From Pannonibacter carbonis (GTDB lineage Bacteria > Pseudomonadota > Alphaproteobacteria > Rhizobiales > Stappiaceae): a DNA stretch of 57,978 nucleotides. The translations under genes were made by a program, and so were the position numbers. The notes beneath the pieces were generated by a model. It did no database searches. It worked only from the letters and a program-made list of their open reading frames with translations, and was not told where the DNA came from. The stretch covers positions 1-57,978 of the forward strand of contig NZ_PUDR01000021.1 in assembly GCF_003012935.1 (NCBI RefSeq). Direction: 5' to 3'. The stretch's first letter is position 1. Each line of letters begins with the position of its first letter. Positions 36,709 through 55,872 of this stretch are shown piece after piece.

Positions 36709-38016
36709 ATGGGAGACCTGTTCGCCGCGCCCGAGGGTCCGAGCGGCCCGAGACCGCTTGCCGACCGGCTGCGCCCCCGTCGGCTGGAGGATGTCGTCGG
36801 GCAGGACCACCTGCTTGGGCCCGATGGCACGCTGTCGCGCATGCTGCGCACCCGGACGCTCGGATCGCTGATCTTCTGGGGACCGCCCGGAACCGGCAAA
36901 ACGACGATTGCGCGGCTCTTGGCCGATGCCACGGATCTCGGCTTTGAACAGGTCTCTGCGATCTTCACCGGCGTTGCCGATCTGAAGAAGGTGTTCGAGA
37001 CGGCAAGGGTGCGGCGGCTGGCCGGACGCGGAACGCTGCTTTTCGTGGACGAGATCCACCGCTTCAATCGGGCCCAGCAGGACAGTTTCCTGCCGGTAAT
37101 GGAGGACGGCACGATCACGCTGGTGGGGGCGACGACGGAGAACCCGTCGTTCGAGCTCAACGCGGCGCTTTTGTCCCGCTCCCATGTGATGACCTTCCGC
37201 TCCCTGGACGCAGAGGCCATCGGCAAACTGCTGGACCGCGCGGAGAGCGAGGAAGGACGTCCGCTTCCGCTGGATGCCGAGGCGCGGGCTGTCCTGATCC
37301 GCATGGCCGATGGCGACGGCCGCTCGTCCCTGACGCTGGCAGAGGACGTCTGGCGGGCGGCCCAGCCGGGAGAGGTCTTTGATGCGGCCCGGCTGCAGGA
37401 CATCGTGCAGCGGCGCGCCCCGATCTATGACAAGGGGCAGGACGGGCACTACAATCTCATATCTGCGCTGCACAAGTCCGTGCGCGGGTCTGATCCTGAT
37501 GCGGCGCTGTACTGGTTCTGCCGCATGCTGGATGGCGGCGAGGGTCCGATCTATCTCGCCCGGCGCCTGATCCGCATGGCGGTCGAGGATATCGGCCTTG
37601 CCGATCCCCAGGCCCTGGTGCAGGCGAATGCTGCGCGCGATGCTTACCAGATGCTCGGCTCCCCGGAAGGGGAACTGGCGCTGGCGCAATGCGTCGTCTA
37701 TCTCGCCACAGCGCCCAAATCCAACGGCGTCTATGTCGCCTACAAGGCGGCTGTTCGGGCTGCAAAGGCGAACGGGTCGCTGCTGCCGCCCAAACATATC
37801 CTGAATGCGCCGACCAAGCTGATGAAGGCCGAAGGCTATGGCGAGGGCTATGCCTACGATCATGATGCGCCGGACGGCTTCTCCGGTCAGGACTATTTCC
37901 CGGAAAGCATGGGCCGGCAGACCTTCTATGATCCGCCGGAACGCGGCTTTGAGCGAGAGATCCGCAAGCGGCTTGACTATTGGTCGCGGTTGCGTCGGGA
38001 GCGTCGCCGGGACTAG
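36709..38016 (+). CDS. rarA: Replication-associated recombination protein A, AAA+ ATPase
   Basis: RarA (MgsA, related to eukaryotic WRNIP1) acts at stalled replication forks. The product has 435 residues, normal length. Walker A GPPGTGKT is at residues 58-65 and Walker B LFVDE at about 111-115, followed by the family motif IHRFNRAQQDSFLP. Sensor 1 is in GATTENPSFELNAALLSR. The C-terminal part matches the RarA/MgsA tetramerisation region. It starts three bases after the protease stop. Confidence 0.95.
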   Translation: MGDLFAAPEGPSGPRPLADRLRPRRLEDVVGQDHLLGPDGTLSRMLRTRTLGSLIFWGPPGTGKTTIARLLADATDLGFEQVSAIFTGVADLKKVFETARVRRLAGRGTLLFVDEIHRFNRAQQDSFLPVMEDGTITLVGATTENPSFELNAALLSRSHVMTFRSLDAEAIGKLLDRAESEEGRPLPLDAEARAVLIRMADGDGRSSLTLAEDVWRAAQPGEVFDAARLQDIVQRRAPIYDKGQDGHYNLISALHKSVRGSDPDAALYWFCRMLDGGEGPIYLARRLIRMAVEDIGLADPQALVQANAARDAYQMLGSPEGELALAQCVVYLATAPKSNGVYVAYKAAVRAAKANGSLLPPKHILNAPTKLMKAEGYGEGYAYDHDAPDGFSGQDYFPESMGRQTFYDPPERGFEREIRKRLDYWSRLRRERRRD

Positions 38017-43720: not shown

Positions 43721-43749
43721 GACCAGACCAGACCAGACCAGACCAGACC
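43721..43749. repeat. GACCA pentanucleotide microsatellite
   Basis: Five full GACCA units plus GACC form a perfect tandem array in the 88-base gap between the convergent atp12 and anbu genes. It ends 16 bases before the anbu stop codon. A 10-base palindrome CGGTTAACCG lies at 43678-43687. Pentamer arrays are prone to slippage; its position outside coding frames makes a length change unlikely to switch a protein on or off. Confidence 0.95.
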
Positions 43750-43764: not shown

Positions 43765-44496
43765 TCAGATCTCGAATTCCTCGATCTCCGTGAAGGCCTT
43801 GCGCAGGGCGCTCGACCAGGCGGCTGACAGGGTCTGGAAATACGGATCGTCCTTGTGGATCCGCTTCTGGCGCTTGGTCGTGAAACTGTCCGTGTTGTAG
43901 AGCATTAGGTCGATGGGCATGCCGACGGACAGGTTGGACCGCAAGGTGCTGTCGAAGGACAGCAGCACCAGCTTGGCGGCCTCGCCCAGCCGCATGTCAC
44001 GGCGCGTCACCCGGTCGAGGATCGGCTTGCCGTATTTGTGCTCGCCGATCTGGAAGAACATCGTATCCGACGTTGCCTCGATGAAATTGCCCGCCGAATA
44101 GATCTGGAACAGGCGCGGCTCCTCGCCCTTGATCTGCCCGCCGAGGATCATCGTCAGGAAGAAGCTTTCCGCATTGGTTGCCAGCGCCTCGCCGTCGAGG
44201 GCCCGCACATCCCGCACCGCCTGTCCAATCAGCCGGGCGGCCTGGAACATGGTGTCGACGGTCATGAGGTTGACCGGATTGAGCGTCGGCGAAGCAATCT
44301 GCTCGCTCAGGATGGTGACCACGGACTGGGTGATGGCGAGGTTGCCGGCGGTCAGCAGCGTGAAGCAGCGCTCGCCTGGCAATTCCCAAGTGTGCAGCTT
44401 CTTGAAGCAAGCGATGTTGTCCACGCCCGCATTGGTGCGCGTGTCGGCGGCGAACACCAGCCCCCGGTCCAGTTTTAGTCCGACGCAGTAAGTCAC
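43765..44496 (-). CDS. Anbu, proteasome-like N-terminal threonine hydrolase (GTG start)
   Basis: Anbu is the bacterial ancestral-beta-subunit relative of the 20S proteasome and HslV, forming homo-oligomeric peptidase rings in the cytoplasm. The GTG at 44496 is chosen over upstream in-frame starts because it places Thr at residue 2, so Met removal alone exposes the catalytic Thr1. The product has 243 residues. Asp18 in AADTRTNAG equals proteasomal Asp17, and Lys33 (mature 32) lies close to the catalytic lysine. The GNLAITQSVV and GGQIKGEEPRLFQIYSAGNFI segments are typical. It is the last gene of the ATP-grasp/alpha-E/transglutaminase operon, 40 bases after the previous gene. The natural substrate is unknown. 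Confidence 0.92.
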   Translation of the reverse strand: MTYCVGLKLDRGLVFAADTRTNAGVDNIACFKKLHTWELPGERCFTLLTAGNLAITQSVVTILSEQIASPTLNPVNLMTVDTMFQAARLIGQAVRDVRALDGEALATNAESFFLTMILGGQIKGEEPRLFQIYSAGNFIEATSDTMFFQIGEHKYGKPILDRVTRRDMRLGEAAKLVLLSFDSTLRSNLSVGMPIDLMLYNTDSFTTKRQKRIHKDDPYFQTLSAAWSSALRKAFTEIEEFEI

Positions 44497-44536
44497 GTAT
44501 CGTCTGCCTCTGATAGCGGCGGCCCGGATGGCGCGG

Positions 44537-45355
44537 CTATTGCTGCTGTTGTTGCCCTTCCGCCCGGAGGACATCCACCTCGACGTGGAGGTTCTCCTCC
44601 TTGCCGCCAAACCGGATGCCGCGGATCGGTGAAGCGGAGCGCGAGTCTAGCCCCAGCGTCAAGCGGATATAGCGATCCGTGGGGCACAAGCCGTTGGAGA
44701 CATCGAACCCGACCCAGCCGAGGCCCTCGAGCCAGGCCTCGACCCAGGCGTGATGGGCCTCGGATTCCTGCTGCTCCTCCAGATACAGGTAGCCCGAGAC
44801 GTAGCGTGCCGGGACCCCGGCCGCACGTGCGGCGGCAATGAAGATGTGGGCGTGATCCTGGCAGACGCCTTCGCCGGCGGCCAGGGCCTCGATGGCGGAG
44901 GCATGGGTTTCGGTCACCCCGATGCGATAGCCGACCTTGTCGCGGATGGCGTGCATCAGGGCATGGCAACCGGAGATCTGGTCATCGGATGTGATCAACT
45001 GCGACAGTTTGCGGATTGCCGGGTTGGCTTCGGTCAGCGACGTGACGCGGGTGTAGATCCGCACAGGCGCCTCGCCGGTCTCATGACCGATGACGCCTGC
45101 AAGATCAGCTGTTTCCACCTCGCCAGAGGCCGTAATCTCGACCTCCTCAATCGGCAGGCTGGAGGAGATCATGTGCACCAGGTTGCCGAAGGCGTCGTGA
45201 TAGGCAGTGGCCCGGTCCATGCCCGGCGCCGTGATGGACCAGTTGAGAATCCGCTGGCTGGCACAGTCCGGCGGGGTCAGCCGCAGCTGCTGCATCGCAT
45301 TGGCGAGCGGGCTGTCATAGCGGTAACGGGTGGTATGGCGAACTGTGAGGCGCAT
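44537..45355 (-). CDS. Transglutaminase-like cysteine protein of the Anbu operon
   Basis: This is a transglutaminase/papain-fold protein, which in bacteria is usually a peptidase or amidase rather than a cross-linking enzyme. The product has 272 residues. An N-terminal beta-rich domain (about 1-100, MRLTVRHTTRYRYDSPL) precedes the catalytic core. The probable triad is Cys165 (in GEGVCQDHAH), His202 (in HHAWVEAWL) and Asp218 (in GFDVSNG). There is no signal peptide, so it should act in the cytoplasm with Anbu. It lies 32 bases after the alpha-E gene and 40 before anbu. Confidence 0.92.
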   Translation of the reverse strand: MRLTVRHTTRYRYDSPLANAMQQLRLTPPDCASQRILNWSITAPGMDRATAYHDAFGNLVHMISSSLPIEEVEITASGEVETADLAGVIGHETGEAPVRIYTRVTSLTEANPAIRKLSQLITSDDQISGCHALMHAIRDKVGYRIGVTETHASAIEALAAGEGVCQDHAHIFIAAARAAGVPARYVSGYLYLEEQQESEAHHAWVEAWLEGLGWVGFDVSNGLCPTDRYIRLTLGLDSRSASPIRGIRFGGKEENLHVEVDVLRAEGQQQQQ

Positions 45356-45387
45356 GATCAGGGTTCCTCGGGCCGTGTCGGCAGGCC

Positions 45388-46332
45388 TCAGGCGAAATTG
45401 TAGTCGCGCGCGAGCCGGTCGGCGAACTTGTTGTTTCGCAAGGTGAAGTCGCTCAGGAATTCGTGCAGGCCACTGTCGAAGATGCCCGCCATCGAGCCGC
45501 TGCGCAGCTGTTCGTGGATGACTGCAGCCTGCGCCGAACTGGGCATCTCGTCACCATAGAACGCGGTGAGGTCAGCCATGGTTCCCGTGATCCAGTCGTA
45601 GCAATGGGCCAGCGAGCGCGGCATTTCCCGGCGCAGGATGAGGAAGTCGGCGACGTTCACGCCCTTGATGCGCGGGTCGGAATAAGCAAAGCGATAGCTT
45701 CTGAGGCCCGACATGACGCGCAGGATCGACGTCCACTGGTGGTGATGCGCGTTGCCGCCCACGTCGGTGTCCGGCAGGAAGATCCAGTAGCGCGTGTCCA
45801 GCACCCGGGCCGTGTGGTCGGCACGCTCGACAAAGTGGCCAAGCTGCGAAAAGTGGTAGCCATCGTCGCGCAGGATCGTTCCCAGCAGCGCGCCACGGAA
45901 CAACAGCGCGCGCTGGCCGATCCAGGCCAGAAACTCCGGCAGCTTGTCCTGGGACACGGTCTGCGGCTTGACGTCGGCAAACTCGATCCAGGTGGTGTTG
46001 ATCGCCTCCCACATGTCGGAGGTGATGCCGGTGCGCACCGAGCGGGCATTGTTGCGGGCGGTCTCCAGCCCGCAATGGATCGAGGACGGATTGGTCTTGT
46101 CGAACAGCATGAAGTTGACGACGCCGCGCTGGGAGATCTCGCCAACCTTTTCCAGATAGGCAGTTTCGCAGCCCGCACCGACAAGAACAGAGCGCCAGTC
46201 GCCGGCAGGATCGGTGCCGAGGTGCGGCAGCATGGCGGTGCGCCAGGCCGCTTCCAGCAGCTTGGCAGTGTTGTGCGCGCGCTCCTGATAGCGCGACATC
46301 CAGAACAGGGAGGAGGCGGTACGGCCAAGCAT
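45388..46332 (-). CDS. Alpha-E domain protein
   Basis: Alpha-E proteins (formerly DUF403) are all-helical, have no known catalytic residues, and are almost always encoded beside circularly permuted ATP-grasp enzymes. ATG 46332 gives the family start MLGRTASSLFWMSRYQERAHN; the longer open frame upstream lies inside the ATP-grasp gene. The product has 314 residues. Its conserved charged motifs include RYQERAHNTAKLLE near the start and GHFVERADHTARVLDTRYW in the middle. It begins four bases after the ATP-grasp stop, which implies tight coupling and probably a complex. Confidence 0.92.
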   Translation of the reverse strand: MLGRTASSLFWMSRYQERAHNTAKLLEAAWRTAMLPHLGTDPAGDWRSVLVGAGCETAYLEKVGEISQRGVVNFMLFDKTNPSSIHCGLETARNNARSVRTGITSDMWEAINTTWIEFADVKPQTVSQDKLPEFLAWIGQRALLFRGALLGTILRDDGYHFSQLGHFVERADHTARVLDTRYWIFLPDTDVGGNAHHHQWTSILRVMSGLRSYRFAYSDPRIKGVNVADFLILRREMPRSLAHCYDWITGTMADLTAFYGDEMPSSAQAAVIHEQLRSGSMAGIFDSGLHEFLSDFTLRNNKFADRLARDYNFA

Positions 46333-46336
46333 GCGA

Positions 46337-47761
46337 TCAGTCCTCCAGAACCCAGGTATCCTTGGTGCCGCCACCCTGGCTGGAATTGACCACCAGGGAG
46401 CCATTCTTCAGTGCCACGCGGGTCAGTCCGCCCGGCGTGATGCGCACCTGATCGCCGATCAGCACGAAGGGGCGCAAATCGACATGGCGCGGGGCAACGC
46501 CCGAGGCCACATGCGTCGGGCAGGCGGAAAGCGCCAGCGTCGGCTGGGCGATGTAGTTGGTCGGATTGGCCTTGAGGATCTCGCGGAAGGCGGCGATTTC
46601 CCGTTTCGAGGCGGTCGGTCCGATCAGCATGCCGTAGCCGCCCGAGCCATGCACCTCCTTGACGACGATGTCGGCCAGGTTGTCGAGCACATAGGCAAGG
46701 TCGTCGGCGCGTGAGCAGTTCCAGGTCGGCACGTTGTTCAGGATCGGCTTTTGTCCGGTGTAGAACTCGATGATGTCCGGGACATAGGCGTAGATCGCCT
46801 TGTCGTCGGCAATGCCGGTGCCCGGCGCATTGCAGATCGTCACCGTGCCGGCACGGTAGGCGTCGAACAGGCCCGGCACGCCCAGCATCGAATTCGGCCG
46901 GAAGGTGAGGGGATCCAGGAACGCGTCGTCGATGCGGCGGTAGATGACATCCACCTGCTTCGGCTTGCGCGTGGTGCGCATCCAGACCTTGCCATTGTCG
47001 ACAAAGAGGTCACGGCCTTCGACCAGCTCGACACCCATCTGGTCGGCGAGGAAAGCGTGCTCGAAATAGGCCGAGTTGTAGATGCCCGGGGTCAGGATGC
47101 AGATGGTCGGATCCCCGTTCGTCCCCTCCGGTGCAACGCTCTCCAGCGTCTGGCGCAAGAGTTCCGGGTAGTGTTCGATGGGTGCGACCCGGTGCATCTG
47201 GAAGAGGTCCGGGAACATCCGCATCATGGTTTCGCGGTTCTCCAGCATGTAGGACACGCCGGAGGGCGTGCGGGTGTTATCCTCAAGAACATAAAAGTCA
47301 TTCTCGCCGACGCGAACGAGATCAGTGCCAATGATATGAGAATAGACGCGCCGCGCCGGGGTGAAGCCGACCATCTCTGGCAGGAAGGCTGCGTTCTGGA
47401 TGATCAGGTCGGCAGGGATGCGGCCGGCGCGGATGATCTCCTGGCGGTGATAGATGTCGTGCAGGAAGGCATTGAGAGCGCGCACGCGCTGGTCGATGCC
47501 GGCCGAAAGACGCCGCCACTCGCCGGCCGAGAGGATGCGCGGGATCGGGTCAAAGGGAATGAGCCGTTCGGTCGCTGCCTGCGCGCCATAGACGGCGAAG
47601 GTGATGCCAAGGCGGCGGAAGATGGTTTCGGCCTCGCGGTTCTTGCGCGACAGGAAGCCTTTCGGCTGCTTGTCCAGCCAGTCTGCAAGCCGGGCATAGG
47701 CCGGGCGGACCGTGCCATCCAGTCCCAGCATTTCGTTGAACACCACCCGTTCTGCGGCCAT
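46337..47761 (-). CDS. Circularly permuted ATP-grasp protein
   Basis: This family is predicted to make peptide or amide bonds using ATP through an acyl-phosphate. ATG 47761 has GGGGGAG just upstream and gives the family start [20 protein letters not shown]; the frame upstream to 47965 is rejected. The product has 474 residues, the usual length. Visible signatures are [17 protein letters not shown] (about 160-176), [18 protein letters not shown] (311-328), the glycine-rich loop [15 protein letters not shown] (368-382) and the C-terminal [13 protein letters not shown]. It is the first gene of the four-gene Anbu operon. Substrate and acceptor are unknown. Confidence 0.93.
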
Positions 47762-47778
47762 GTTCTCCCCCGTCGTCG

Positions 47779-47846
47779 TTTGCCGATCATTTAGGCAAGC
47801 ATTGCAAATCACTTGGGTCTGCAAAAGCGCAATCTTCACGCTTGCC
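47779..47846. promoter_or_regulatory. Dyad-rich element between the Anbu operon and pccB
   Basis: Several overlapping inverted repeats lie in this divergent 230-base interval. TTGCC at 47780-47784 can pair with GGCAA at 47794-47798. GGCAAGC at 47794-47800 can pair with GCTTGCC at 47840-47846. ATTGC at 47801-47805 can pair with GCAAT at 47829-47833. Half-sites with TTGCAAA and TGCAAAA recall short-chain acyl-CoA regulator sites, but their spacing differs from the published pattern I know. It may bind a regulator of either operon. Confidence 0.4.
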
Positions 47847-47991
47847 TGCCTTCCCTTTAGGCACAATGTCGGGCTTGCCTGAATGTCCATCACCCGGTAG
47901 GAGCCCGGCGTCCATCTTTGTGCTGACTTTCCGGGCTTTGCGCGCTCATGATAGACCGATGGCAAAGCACGTCATGCCAAAGGGGCACACC

Positions 47992-49524
47992 ATGAAGGAA
48001 ATCCTGGCCGAACTGGAACACCGGCGCGAAACCGCGCGGCTCGGCGGCGGATTGAAGCGCATCGCCGCCCAGCACGCGCGGGGCAAGCTGACGGCCCGCG
48101 AGCGCATCGACATTTTCCTCGACGAAGGGTCGTTCGAGGAATTCGACATGTTCAAGCAGCACCGCTGCACCGACTTCGGCATGGACGAGGCGCATATCCC
48201 GGGGGATGGCGTTGTCACCGGCTGGGGCACGGTCAACGGCCGTGTCGTCTACGTCTTTTCCAAGGATTTCACGGTCTTCGGCGGATCGCTGTCCGAAACC
48301 CATGCCCAAAAAATCATCAAGATCCAGGACATGGCGCTGCAGAACCGGGCTCCGATCATCGGGCTGTTTGATGCCGGTGGCGCGCGCATCCAGGAAGGCG
48401 TTGCCGCGCTGGCCGGCTATGGCGAGGTGTTCCAGCGCAACGTGATCGCCTCGGGTGTGATCCCGCAGATCTCGCTGATCATGGGGCCCTGCGCCGGCGG
48501 CGATGTCTATTCGCCGGCGATGACCGACTTCATCTTCATGGTGCGCGACACGTCCTACATGTTCGTGACCGGTCCGGATGTGGTGAAGACCGTGACCAAT
48601 GAAACGGTGACGGCCGAGGAACTGGGCGGGGCAAGCGTCCACACCACCAAATCCTCCATCGCCGATGGCGGGTTCGACAATGACGTCGAGGCGCTTCTGG
48701 AAATGCGCCGCCTCATCGACTTCCTGCCGATGAACAACGCGGCCGACGTGCCGGAAGTCGATTGCCACGATGATCCCTCGCGGCTCGATCTCAGCCTCGA
48801 CACGCTGATCCCGAACAATCCGAACAAGCCCTATGACATGAAGGAACTGGTGCTGAAGACCGTCGACGAGAGCGACTTCTTTGAGATCCAGGCCGGATTT
48901 GCCAAGAACATCATCACCGGTTTCGGCCGCATCGAGGGACGGACGGTCGGCATCATCGCCAACCAGCCGATGGTGCTTGCGGGCGTTCTGGACAGTGACG
49001 CCAGCCGCAAGGCCGCGCGGTTCGTGCGCTTCTGCGACTGTTTCAACATCCCGATCGTCACCTTCGTCGACGTTCCGGGCTTCCTGCCTGGCACGGCGCA
49101 GGAATATGGCGGGCTGATCAAGCACGGCGCCAAGCTGCTGTTTGCCTATGCCGAAGCGACCGTTCCGAAAGTCACCGTCATCACCCGCAAGGCCTATGGT
49201 GGGGCCTATGACGTGATGAGCTCCAAGCACATCGGCGGCGACATCAACTACGCCTGGCCGACGGCCGAGATTGCGGTGATGGGGGCCAAGGGCGCAGTCG
49301 AGATCCTGTACCGCTCGGAACTCGCCGACAAGGACAAGATCGCCAAGCGGACCAAGGACTACGAGACCCGCTTCGCCAATCCCTTCGTCGCAGCCGAGCG
49401 CGGCTACATCGACGAGGTGATCATGCCCCATTCAACCCGCAAGCGCGTCTCCCGCGCGCTTGCCTTGCTCAGGGCGAAGAAAGTGGCAATGCCGCTGAAG
49501 AAGCACGACAACATTCCGCTCTGA
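47992..49524 (+). CDS. pccB: Propionyl-CoA carboxylase beta subunit (carboxyltransferase)
   Basis: The beta subunit transfers the carboxyl group from biotin to propionyl-CoA, giving methylmalonyl-CoA. The frame is open from 47842, but ATG 47992 has AAAGGGG upstream and gives the family start [20 protein letters not shown] and exactly 510 residues, the typical length. The acyl-CoA site has [20 protein letters not shown], and [14 protein letters not shown] follows; the C-terminal crotonase-like half has [14 protein letters not shown] and [14 protein letters not shown]. It faces away from the Anbu operon; its partner pccA is at 53860. Confidence 0.95.
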
Positions 49525-53859: not shown

Positions 53860-55872
53860 ATGTTTTCCAAGATCCTGATCGCGAACCGCGGCGAAATCGC
53901 ATGCCGTGTCATCAAGACCGCGCGGCGGATGGGGATCAAGACCGTTGCGGTCTATTCGGATGCGGACAAGGACGCGCTGCACGTGGAAATGGCCGATGAG
54001 GCCGTACACATCGGGCCTGCTGCCGCGGCAGACTCCTACCTCGTGATGGACAAGATCATCGCCGCCTGCAAGGCGACCGGCGCCGAGGCCGTGCATCCGG
54101 GCTATGGCTTCCTGTCCGAACGTGCCGCCTTCCCGAAAGCCCTGGCGGACGCCGGAATTGTCTTCATCGGCCCGAACCCCAAGGCCATCGAGGCGATGGG
54201 CGACAAGATCGAATCGAAGAAATTCGCCAACGCTGCCAAGGTCAGCACCGTGCCGGGCTATCTCGGGGTCATCGAGACGCCGGAACATGCGGTGGAGATT
54301 GCCACCGAGATCGGCTTCCCGGTCATGATCAAGGCCTCGGCCGGTGGCGGCGGCAAGGGCATGCGCATTGCCTGGAACGCCGGCGAGGTGCACGAAGGCT
54401 TCGCGCGCTCCAAGTCGGAAGCCGCCTCGTCCTTCGGCGATGACCGCGTGTTCATTGAGAAGTTCATCCAGAACCCGCGCCACATCGAGATCCAGGTGCT
54501 GGGCGACAAGCACGGCAATGTCATTTATCTCGGCGAGCGCGAATGCTCGATCCAGCGCCGCAACCAGAAGGTCATCGAGGAGGCCCCGTCGCCGCTGCTC
54601 GATGAAGCCACCCGCCGCGCCATGGGCGAGCAGGCCGTGGCGCTTGCCAAGGCCGTCAACTACGACAGCGCCGGCACGGTGGAATTCGTCGCCGGTCAGG
54701 ACAAGAGCTTCTTTTTCCTTGAGATGAACACCCGCCTGCAGGTGGAGCATCCGGTGACCGAACTCATCACCGGCATTGACCTTGTCGAGCAGATGATCCG
54801 CGTCGCCTATGGCGAGAAGCTGGCGATTGCGCAGGCCGATGTGAAGCTGAACGGCTGGGCGGTCGAGAGCCGCATCTATGCCGAGGATCCCTATCGCAAC
54901 TTCCTGCCGTCCATCGGCCGTCTCGTGCGCTACAGCCCGCCGGAAGAGAAGTCGGAAGACGGCGTGACCGTGCGCAACGACACCGGCGTCGTCGAGGGCT
55001 CGGAAATCTCGATGTTCTACGACCCGATGATCGCCAAGCTCGTCACCCATGCGCCGACACGCTTGGAGGCGATCGAGGCCATGTCGGAAGCGCTCGACGC
55101 CTTCTATGTCGATGGCATCCAGCACAACGTGCCGTTCCTGACCTCGCTGATGAGCCATCCGCGCTGGCGCGCCGGCACGTTGTCGACCGGCTTCATCGTC
55201 GAGGAATATCCGGATGGCTTTACGCCGGCAGTTCCGGATGCCGAGGCCAAATCGGTCCTGGCGGCGGTGGCGCTGACCATGGAAACCCTGCGCCGCGAAC
55301 GCCTGGACCATCTGCCGGGCCGGCTGCGTCCGCACACGGGTGCCGTGCGCGAGCAGTGGACCGTGAAGATCGGCAAGGATTACATCCCGGTCCGCATCAC
55401 TGAGGGCTATCCGGCAGCACCGCTTGAAATGGATGTCTCCGTCGACGGCGGTGATGTCGTCACGGTCACTTCGGACTGGGTGCCGGGTGACCGGCTGTGG
55501 CGCGGCTCCATCGGGGACCGCCGCGTGGTGGTGCAGGTACGCCCCGTCACTTCCGGCTACCGGCTCGACTGGCAGGGCTTCTCCGTCATTGCCAAGACCA
55601 TGACCCCGCGCACGGCGGAACTCGACGCCCTGATGCCGGAAAAGCTGCCGCCGGACACTTCGAAGTTCCTGCTGTGCCCGATGCCGGGTCTCGTCGTCTC
55701 CGTCATGGTCAGCGAAGGCCAGGACGTGAAGGCCGGCGAGGCGCTCGCCATCGTCGAGGCGATGAAGATGGAAAACGTGCTTCGCGCCGAACGCGATTGT
55801 GTTATCAGCGAGATCAAGGCCAAGCCCGGCGACAGTCTCGCCGTCGATGCCGTGATCATGGAGTTTGAATGA
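53860..55872 (+). CDS. pccA: Propionyl-CoA carboxylase alpha subunit, biotin carboxylase plus biotin carrier
   Basis: The alpha subunit carboxylates its own biotin with ATP and bicarbonate and passes the group to PccB. The product has 670 residues. The biotin carboxylase domain begins MFSKILIANRGEIACRVI; the glycine-rich ATP loop is KASAGGGGKGMRIA, and the ERECSIQRRNQKVIEEAP and MNTRLQVEHPVTELITGIDLV motifs follow. A linker domain leads to the biotinyl domain with Lys636 in EAMKMEN near the C-terminus. This full fusion and length fit PccA rather than stand-alone AccC. It overlaps the next gene by four bases. Confidence 0.95.
   Translation: MFSKILIANRGEIACRVIKTARRMGIKTVAVYSDADKDALHVEMADEAVHIGPAAAADSYLVMDKIIAACKATGAEAVHPGYGFLSERAAFPKALADAGIVFIGPNPKAIEAMGDKIESKKFANAAKVSTVPGYLGVIETPEHAVEIATEIGFPVMIKASAGGGGKGMRIAWNAGEVHEGFARSKSEAASSFGDDRVFIEKFIQNPRHIEIQVLGDKHGNVIYLGERECSIQRRNQKVIEEAPSPLLDEATRRAMGEQAVALAKAVNYDSAGTVEFVAGQDKSFFFLEMNTRLQVEHPVTELITGIDLVEQMIRVAYGEKLAIAQADVKLNGWAVESRIYAEDPYRNFLPSIGRLVRYSPPEEKSEDGVTVRNDTGVVEGSEISMFYDPMIAKLVTHAPTRLEAIEAMSEALDAFYVDGIQHNVPFLTSLMSHPRWRAGTLSTGFIVEEYPDGFTPAVPDAEAKSVLAAVALTMETLRRERLDHLPGRLRPHTGAVREQWTVKIGKDYIPVRITEGYPAAPLEMDVSVDGGDVVTVTSDWVPGDRLWRGSIGDRRVVVQVRPVTSGYRLDWQGFSVIAKTMTPRTAELDALMPEKLPPDTSKFLLCPMPGLVVSVMVSEGQDVKAGEALAIVEAMKMENVLRAERDCVISEIKAKPGDSLAVDAVIMEFE

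Follow-up and report, generated by a model that had tools for sequence, protein, structure and literature searches.

Anbu is the supposed ancestor of the catalytic subunit of the proteasome. Its gene belongs to a four-gene operon, known from Pseudomonas and Yersinia bercovieri, among others, together with genes for an ATP-grasp protein, an alpha-E protein and a transglutaminase-like cysteine enzyme (TGL). The operon, the idea of peptide synthesis or tagging and the alternative of degradation are already in print, with Iyer et al. 2009 and Valas and Bourne 2008 cited for the tagging hypothesis (PMC5666114, PMC6376114). Anbu structures have been published since 2017 (PMC5666114). The window analyzed here is one whole contig of 57,978 nucleotides (NZ_PUDR01000021.1) from the genome of Pannonibacter carbonis (4.78 Mb, 33 contigs). 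It holds an operon with the same four families, the same order and the same catalytic residues, and nothing essential differs. Judged from its genes, the locus is an intact copy of the described Anbu operon and not a new kind of system. As to function, about even chances are given to an amide ligase of ATP-grasp and alpha-E, the product of which would be edited by TGL and Anbu in a RimK/RimB-like logic.

RimK/RimB and RloABC resemble the operon in the pairing of an ATP-grasp ligase with a dedicated protease, a likeness of logic and not of family. RloABC has been described with an ATP-grasp ligase and an aspartic peptidase, RloB being an inactive transglutaminase (PMC12239564), a further likeness to the operon and its transglutaminase-like protein. 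Characteristic of the two systems are a RimK-type ATP-grasp, a retropepsin-type protease and a membrane-bound transglutaminase, whereas the operon has a CP_ATPgrasp protein and an N-terminal nucleophile (Ntn) hydrolase instead. The 20S proteasome with Pup or ubiquitin tagging shares with Anbu the proteasome-type Ntn hydrolase, but the operon contains neither a modifier gene nor an AAA+ gene.

The operon of Pannonibacter carbonis

The operon and its upstream region comprise the following features:

47762..47958, no strand, intergenic region between the operon and a divergent carboxyl transferase gene
46337..47761, minus strand, circularly permuted ATP-grasp protein, 474 aa, predicted amide ligase
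45388..46332, minus strand, alpha-E protein (PF04168), 314 aa, all-helical model
44537..45355, minus strand, TGL, 272 aa
43765..44496, minus strand, Anbu, 243 aa from a GTG start, proteasome-like Ntn hydrolase

The gaps between the genes, in the order ATP-grasp, alpha-E, TGL and Anbu, are 4, 32 and 40 nt. An earlier sequence-only reading had proposed these four minus-strand genes, their spacing and their family assignments; all genes were found at the positions given, and profile searches confirmed the families. Pfam places the ATP-grasp protein in CP_ATPgrasp_2 (4e-169), with a full-length match (PF14403/PF04174) and the conserved motif residues, and the alpha-E protein in Alpha-E (4.4e-82), with a full-length match including the ER motif. 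TGL combines the N-terminal domain Bact_transglu_N (PF08379, 8.8e-22) with a Transglut_core (PF01841, 1.2e-24) bearing Cys-His-Asp, and Anbu matches Proteasome (4.8e-08). None of the four proteins is named by an NCBIfam model; Anbu scored far under the cut-off of an archaeal proteasome model. Sequence comparison with the PDB yielded 3n6x for the ATP-grasp protein (E 4.2e-209) and 3isr for TGL (E 7.2e-14), and no relative of known structure for alpha-E (best E 1.8). Anbu aligns over all 243 residues with 5nyj (E 4.2e-102), a solved Anbu from Hyphomicrobium. Five PDB sequences match Anbu at E <=0.001, named Anbu (2), designed Anbu (1) and Peptidase (2); no HslV or 20S sequence is among them. One of the two Peptidase entries, 5lox, is called Anbu in PMC8665760.

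The key residues named in the sequence-only reading are intact. The ATP-grasp protein keeps E160, D161, N162, K368, S373-G377, R448, N459 and K467, to which roles in metal and ATP binding are presumably attached as in ATP-grasps in general; across 99 stand-alone members (95 distinct), conservation of the motif reaches at least 97%. Anbu carries Thr2 directly after Met, Asp18 and Lys33, as in solved Anbu, and in 59 sequences (56 distinct) each of the three is conserved to at least 97%. Cys165, His202 and Asp218 of TGL are present. Such residues would permit activity of the operon proteins, and no more. For TGL, the catalytic cysteine holds for this operon and is not constant across the family. 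Among 82 sequences (78 distinct, four of the 82 from the sister DUF2126 system treated below), Cys165 occurs in 68, His202 in 80 and Asp218 in 82. The cysteine is lost in 14 (13 of the 78 distinct ones), which belong to Devosia and kin and to four further loci, L079, L081, L124 and L148. The complete set comprises L062-L066, L079, L081, L105, L109-L111, L124, L132 and L148, and these loci are otherwise intact. Several cysteine-less TGLs have a Gln-rich stretch near the site. Given the nearly invariant ATP-grasp motif and the absence of the TGL cysteine in 14 of 82, ligation appears as the more constant chemistry.

A link between cysteine loss and Anbu absence was considered and rejected. The contingency table (41/1 vs 24/12, Fisher 4e-4) includes in its second row two TGLs of the sister system, from L070 and L150 (one of those in L150). 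On the tree the link is not significant, as the cysteine label changes just 3 times and starred branches supply no more than 2 independent pairs.

Phyletic distribution and gene neighborhoods

Anbu, alpha-E and DUF2126 were followed in a sample of the order (297 genomes) and in a sample of the phylum (160 genomes). The search for Anbu used one protein, and very distant forms, e.g. the published Anbu-2 type, may be missed. In the order sample, Anbu was found in 190 genomes, alpha-E in 229 and DUF2126 in 147. A single Anbu genome of the 190 lacked alpha-E (G240, about 530 contigs), and 40 of the 229 alpha-E genomes lacked Anbu; nine had alpha-E with neither Anbu nor DUF2126. Copy numbers of alpha-E follow its partners: exactly one in 73 of 75 genomes with Anbu and without DUF2126, exactly two in 113 of 115 genomes with both, and two in 28 of 32 genomes with DUF2126 and without Anbu. 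In the phylum sample, 57 genomes had Anbu, 89 alpha-E and 56 both. Again one Anbu genome (1/57; G413, about 170 contigs) lacked alpha-E, and 33 of the 89 alpha-E genomes lacked Anbu. Outside the order, alpha-E was present in 39 of 40 Anbu genomes, and Anbu was absent from 31 alpha-E genomes. Fisher values for this co-occurrence are not probabilities of independent events, since the genomes share descent. The co-occurrence analysis suggested by the sequence-only reading thus reveals a near one-way dependence of Anbu on alpha-E, from which an order of action can be read where the operon alone gave a vague link.

Gene neighborhoods were compared in named genomes, using the best 80 of 593 confirmed loci, which stand for near relatives. 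Profiles were run in six frames, and a locus was counted as full with at least 1.5 kb upstream and at least 3 kb downstream of alpha-E (69 of the 80). The ATP-grasp gene was present in all 69 full loci and adjoined alpha-E in each of them, TGL was found in 66, and Anbu lay within 3 kb in 38. All four genes occurred together in 35, with identical order and strand in 35 of 35, which argues against a chance grouping. The 31 full loci without Anbu belong mostly to Rhizobium, Agrobacterium and kin, and Devosia. A search of the respective genomes located Anbu elsewhere in 2 and found none in the other 29; the completeness of these genomes is not stated, and some are metagenome-assembled.

TGL may be lost as well. 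Three full loci of Aureimonas retain Anbu and lack TGL. TGL is also missing from a Rugosibacter locus near a contig end. Outside these loci, the three Aureimonas genomes encode Bact_transglu_N domains (2, 3 and 2, respectively) within frames 301 to 1578 aa long, so a TGL may serve in trans. In a tree of 74 ATP-grasp rows, the absence of TGL accounts for 2 changes. In hand-picked loci, inspected separately for the position of Anbu, the gene is divergent in L055, separated by several genes in L079, and close by but on the opposite strand in L080. A solo Anbu was also found in genome G177.

The sister DUF2126 system

The DUF2126 system shares the ATP-grasp, alpha-E and TGL families with the operon. 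It consists of a DUF2126 protein with a TGL domain, a fused ATP-grasp/alpha-E protein and TGL, and differs by the presence of DUF2126, by an altered ATP-grasp motif and by having no Anbu beside it in the loci examined. The fusion was found in 24 of 26 sister-system loci examined:

L070, 8762-11275, altered fused ATP-grasp/alpha-E
L071, L072, L074, L075, L170-L181 and L183-L189, altered fused ATP-grasp/alpha-E

None of E160, N162, K368, N459 and K467 is kept in any of the 24 fusions. D161 is kept in 20, Arg stands at position 368 in 3, and in four (L072, L075, L176, L187) position 160 is Asp and a glycine loop is partly preserved. With these remnants, some of the fused ATP-grasps may retain an altered activity and need not simply be dead. 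DUF2126 is annotated in Pfam as a putative amidoligase, and ligation may have moved there.

In L072 and L075, a stand-alone ATP-grasp and alpha-E are clustered with the altered fusion and with DUF2126 (L072) or a TGL-type frame. Their stand-alone ATP-grasps keep every residue checked. No Anbu was found in these two loci. Anbu-type and DUF2126 systems seem to have merged there. The P. carbonis genome gave no match to DUF2126, and its sole alpha-E is stand-alone.

Proposed function and alternatives

ATP-grasp and alpha-E would form an ATP-dependent amide (peptide-bond) ligase, joining an amino acid or amine to an acceptor carboxylate. TGL with its cysteine and Anbu with its N-terminal threonine would be accessory enzymes which hydrolyze or transfer the amide formed, and the modification or product would thereby be edited or recycled. 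Anbu would serve the product of the pair and be dispensable to the pair itself. By analogy, this would be the logic of a ligase with a dedicated trimming protease, not that of tagging for bulk destruction. A joint action of ATP-grasp and alpha-E is supported by their adjacency in all full loci and by the fusion in the sister system. The constancy of the pair, the coming and going of TGL and Anbu and the dependence of Anbu on the pair fit a ligase with an edited product, and agree less with a system that has degradation as its output. Gene identity, order, residues, the near one-way dependence and the sister fusion are observations of this study; the ATP-grasp from Y. bercovieri releases phosphate from ATP (PMC6376114); the ligase reaction, the acceptor and the action of TGL and Anbu on the product are inferred. 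If true, a proteasome-type enzyme would be tied to the editing of a ligase product instead of protein destruction. A bolder version is tentative and clearly less probable: alpha-E would be the acceptor-binding subunit of an invariant two-subunit ligase and Anbu an editing, not a degradative, amidase. Lineages would swap or lose editors, and the DUF2126 branch would have moved the ligase chemistry to another amidoligase domain, while an ATP-grasp, dead or altered, would have stayed on with alpha-E to serve as a platform.

Several points weigh against the ligase with an edited product. Fuchs et al. read the Anbu structures as protein degradation and considered peptide synthesis less likely (PMC5666114), and pull-downs detected no specific or stable complex among the operon proteins (PMC6376114). 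The absences of Anbu represent few independent events (4 changes of the Anbu label in the 74-row tree), and the 69 full loci, drawn from the best 80 of 593, cover near relatives only. The solo Anbu in the host genome, which does hold the trio, indicates that some Anbu may act apart. Expression data are divided. Under nitrogen limitation, PP_2686-2688 of Pseudomonas putida rose 12.6, 11.0 and 14.7 fold and the Anbu gene PP_2685 1.12 fold in the first column of a table read without its headings (PMC7801951), a pattern that counts in favor of the ligase reading. PP_2685 reached 4.81 and 1.45 in the other two columns (PMC7801951). A second study, again by the first column, reported 11.1 fold for PP2685 and 6.6 and 7.1 fold for PP2686 and PP2687 (PMC3325844), which favors a co-use of all four genes. 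The two studies thus disagree on Anbu itself.

In the sequence-only reading, ATP-grasp and alpha-E may attach a peptide or amide tag, which TGL trims and Anbu degrades, as a small self-contained system. This proposal has partial support. The joint action of the pair is supported; degradation by Anbu as the purpose is not, being called into doubt by the 31 of 69 full loci without Anbu and the 29 of these 31 genomes in which none was found, by the loss of the TGL cysteine, by divergent, distant and solo Anbu genes, and by the lack of a detected complex and of peptidase activity of Y. bercovieri Anbu on three fluorogenic standard substrates (PMC6376114). Tagging for degradation, with TGL trimming or moving the mark, is rated as rather unlikely. 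It is a hypothesis in print (PMC6376114, PMC5666114), open-ring structures and inhibitor binding have been read as proteolysis (PMC5666114), the catalytic residues are all intact, and Anbu was induced under nitrogen limitation in one of the P. putida studies (PMC3325844). The short gaps of the operon, however, leave no room for a gene of a peptide tag (the rest of the genome was not searched for one), and the nearest AAA+ gene seen, of MgsA type, is encoded by the opposite strand at 36709-38016.

In another alternative, the pair would build an amide-linked compound, either a small metabolite resembling a peptide or a store of nitrogen, and TGL and Anbu would be amidases that free its nitrogen in times of shortage. 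The reported control speaks for it. PP_2685-2688 have been called likely NtrC-controlled (PMC7801951), a related cluster of Burkholderia cenocepacia is NtrC- and sigma-54-dependent (PMC5491218), and COG3484 (proteasome-type protease) is listed in a survey of the sigma-54 regulon (PMC12316311). No polymer or metabolite of this kind is known, however, control and function need not coincide, and no sigma-54-like site was seen upstream of the present operon; this explanation is likewise held to be improbable. Still less probable are unlinked functions, in which Anbu would be a protease for housekeeping or stress and its gene no more than a fellow traveler of the trio. The solo Anbu genes of the host and of G177, the displaced genes in L055, L079 and L080 and the missing complex (PMC6376114) would agree with such independence, but Anbu without alpha-E is limited to 1 of 190 and 1 of 57 genomes, even where the genes lie apart.

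Control elements

The B. cenocepacia cluster comprises DUF404/407, DUF403, a transglutaminase-like and a large transglutaminase-like protein, no Anbu being named (PMC5491218). Sigma-54-like sites were sought in 35 loci, in 400 bp upstream and the first 60 bp of the gene, with a provisional matrix and starts set by script. The best -24/-12 candidate upstream of this operon scored 13.0 of 17.5 with this matrix, and shuffles were as good in a fraction of 0.35, i.e. no site was found. A shuffle p <=0.02 was obtained in 4 of the 35 loci (L046, L056, L057, L078). A block TTGGCC...TTTGCG, 59-72 bp upstream, is common to L057, L058 (p 0.11) and L078. With sites in so few loci, the control looks patchy. 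Scans for sigma-70 promoters and terminators gave 1 promoter vs 0.9 expected and 5 terminators vs 2.7 expected. The upstream region 47762..47958 has conserved blocks in common with a second species of the genus, and this partial conservation may reflect a different type of control element.

Further copies in the host genome

The genome of P. carbonis encodes one alpha-E, one CP-ATP-grasp and three proteasome-family proteins: HslV on contig C28 (NCBIfam HslV models, 2.2e-85), the operon Anbu and, on contig C29, a solo Anbu at about 45.0-45.8 kb between the genes for ribosomal protein S4 and a family-3 solute-binding protein. This extra divergent Anbu and HslV come in addition to the described Anbu operon. 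In the locus set, the solo Anbu is represented as follows:

L034, 1387-2217, solo Anbu
L076, 9034-9759, solo Anbu

It is 49% identical to the operon Anbu and has Thr2 and the SDSRTNAG motif. With this identity and a branch length of 1.27, a recent duplicate of the operon copy was rejected. Its placement in the tree is unsafe, as it sits beside another long branch. Another species of the genus (G116) also gave two Anbu matches. A second protein with a transglutaminase core, found in the host genome, has no Bact_transglu_N domain.

Structure of alpha-E and TGL

Judged from the family alignment, alpha-E is a tandem internal duplication with an ER motif in each half. Residues 7-93 align with 156-249 over 87 columns (HHalign, as a single comparison: probability 97.8, E 7.5e-13). 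Six segment pairs were tried; the repeat was clear in four, weak in one (probability 52.5) and not apparent in one that excluded the ER motifs. Paired between the halves are a Trp, a P-x-S turn and the ER motifs, and E17 R18 and E169 R170 are invariant in 46 sequences. The AlphaFold model is all-helical and confident (predicted local distance difference test, pLDDT, 90.2; predicted template modeling score, pTM, 0.89). Foldseek listed 347 PDB matches to it, none at E <=0.001 (best E 0.21, template modeling score 0.22). The TGL model (pLDDT 91.5) has 3isr, a putative cysteine protease, as top structural match (E 9.2e-20), followed by TgpA. Neither the duplication of alpha-E nor the altered sister ATP-grasp nor the cysteine loss of TGL was seen in print, in searches made mostly not by name; they may be described by Iyer et al. 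(2009) or by Valas and Bourne (2008).

Neighboring genes

The operon is flanked by ATP12, HAD and carboxyl transferase genes. The nearest named relatives, as judged from alpha-E, Anbu and ATP-grasp, are Roseibium and Stappia (Stappiaceae). The carboxyl transferase gene (47959-49524) is divergent from the operon, and the same place in L042 and L049 is also taken by a carboxyl transferase. A biotin carboxylase gene of the propionyl-CoA-carboxylase type (53860-55872) follows 4.3 kb beyond it. Shortly downstream of the Anbu stop codon, a perfect tandem repeat of the 5-bp unit GACCA (5.8 copies, 43721-43749) represents a possible length-variable site.

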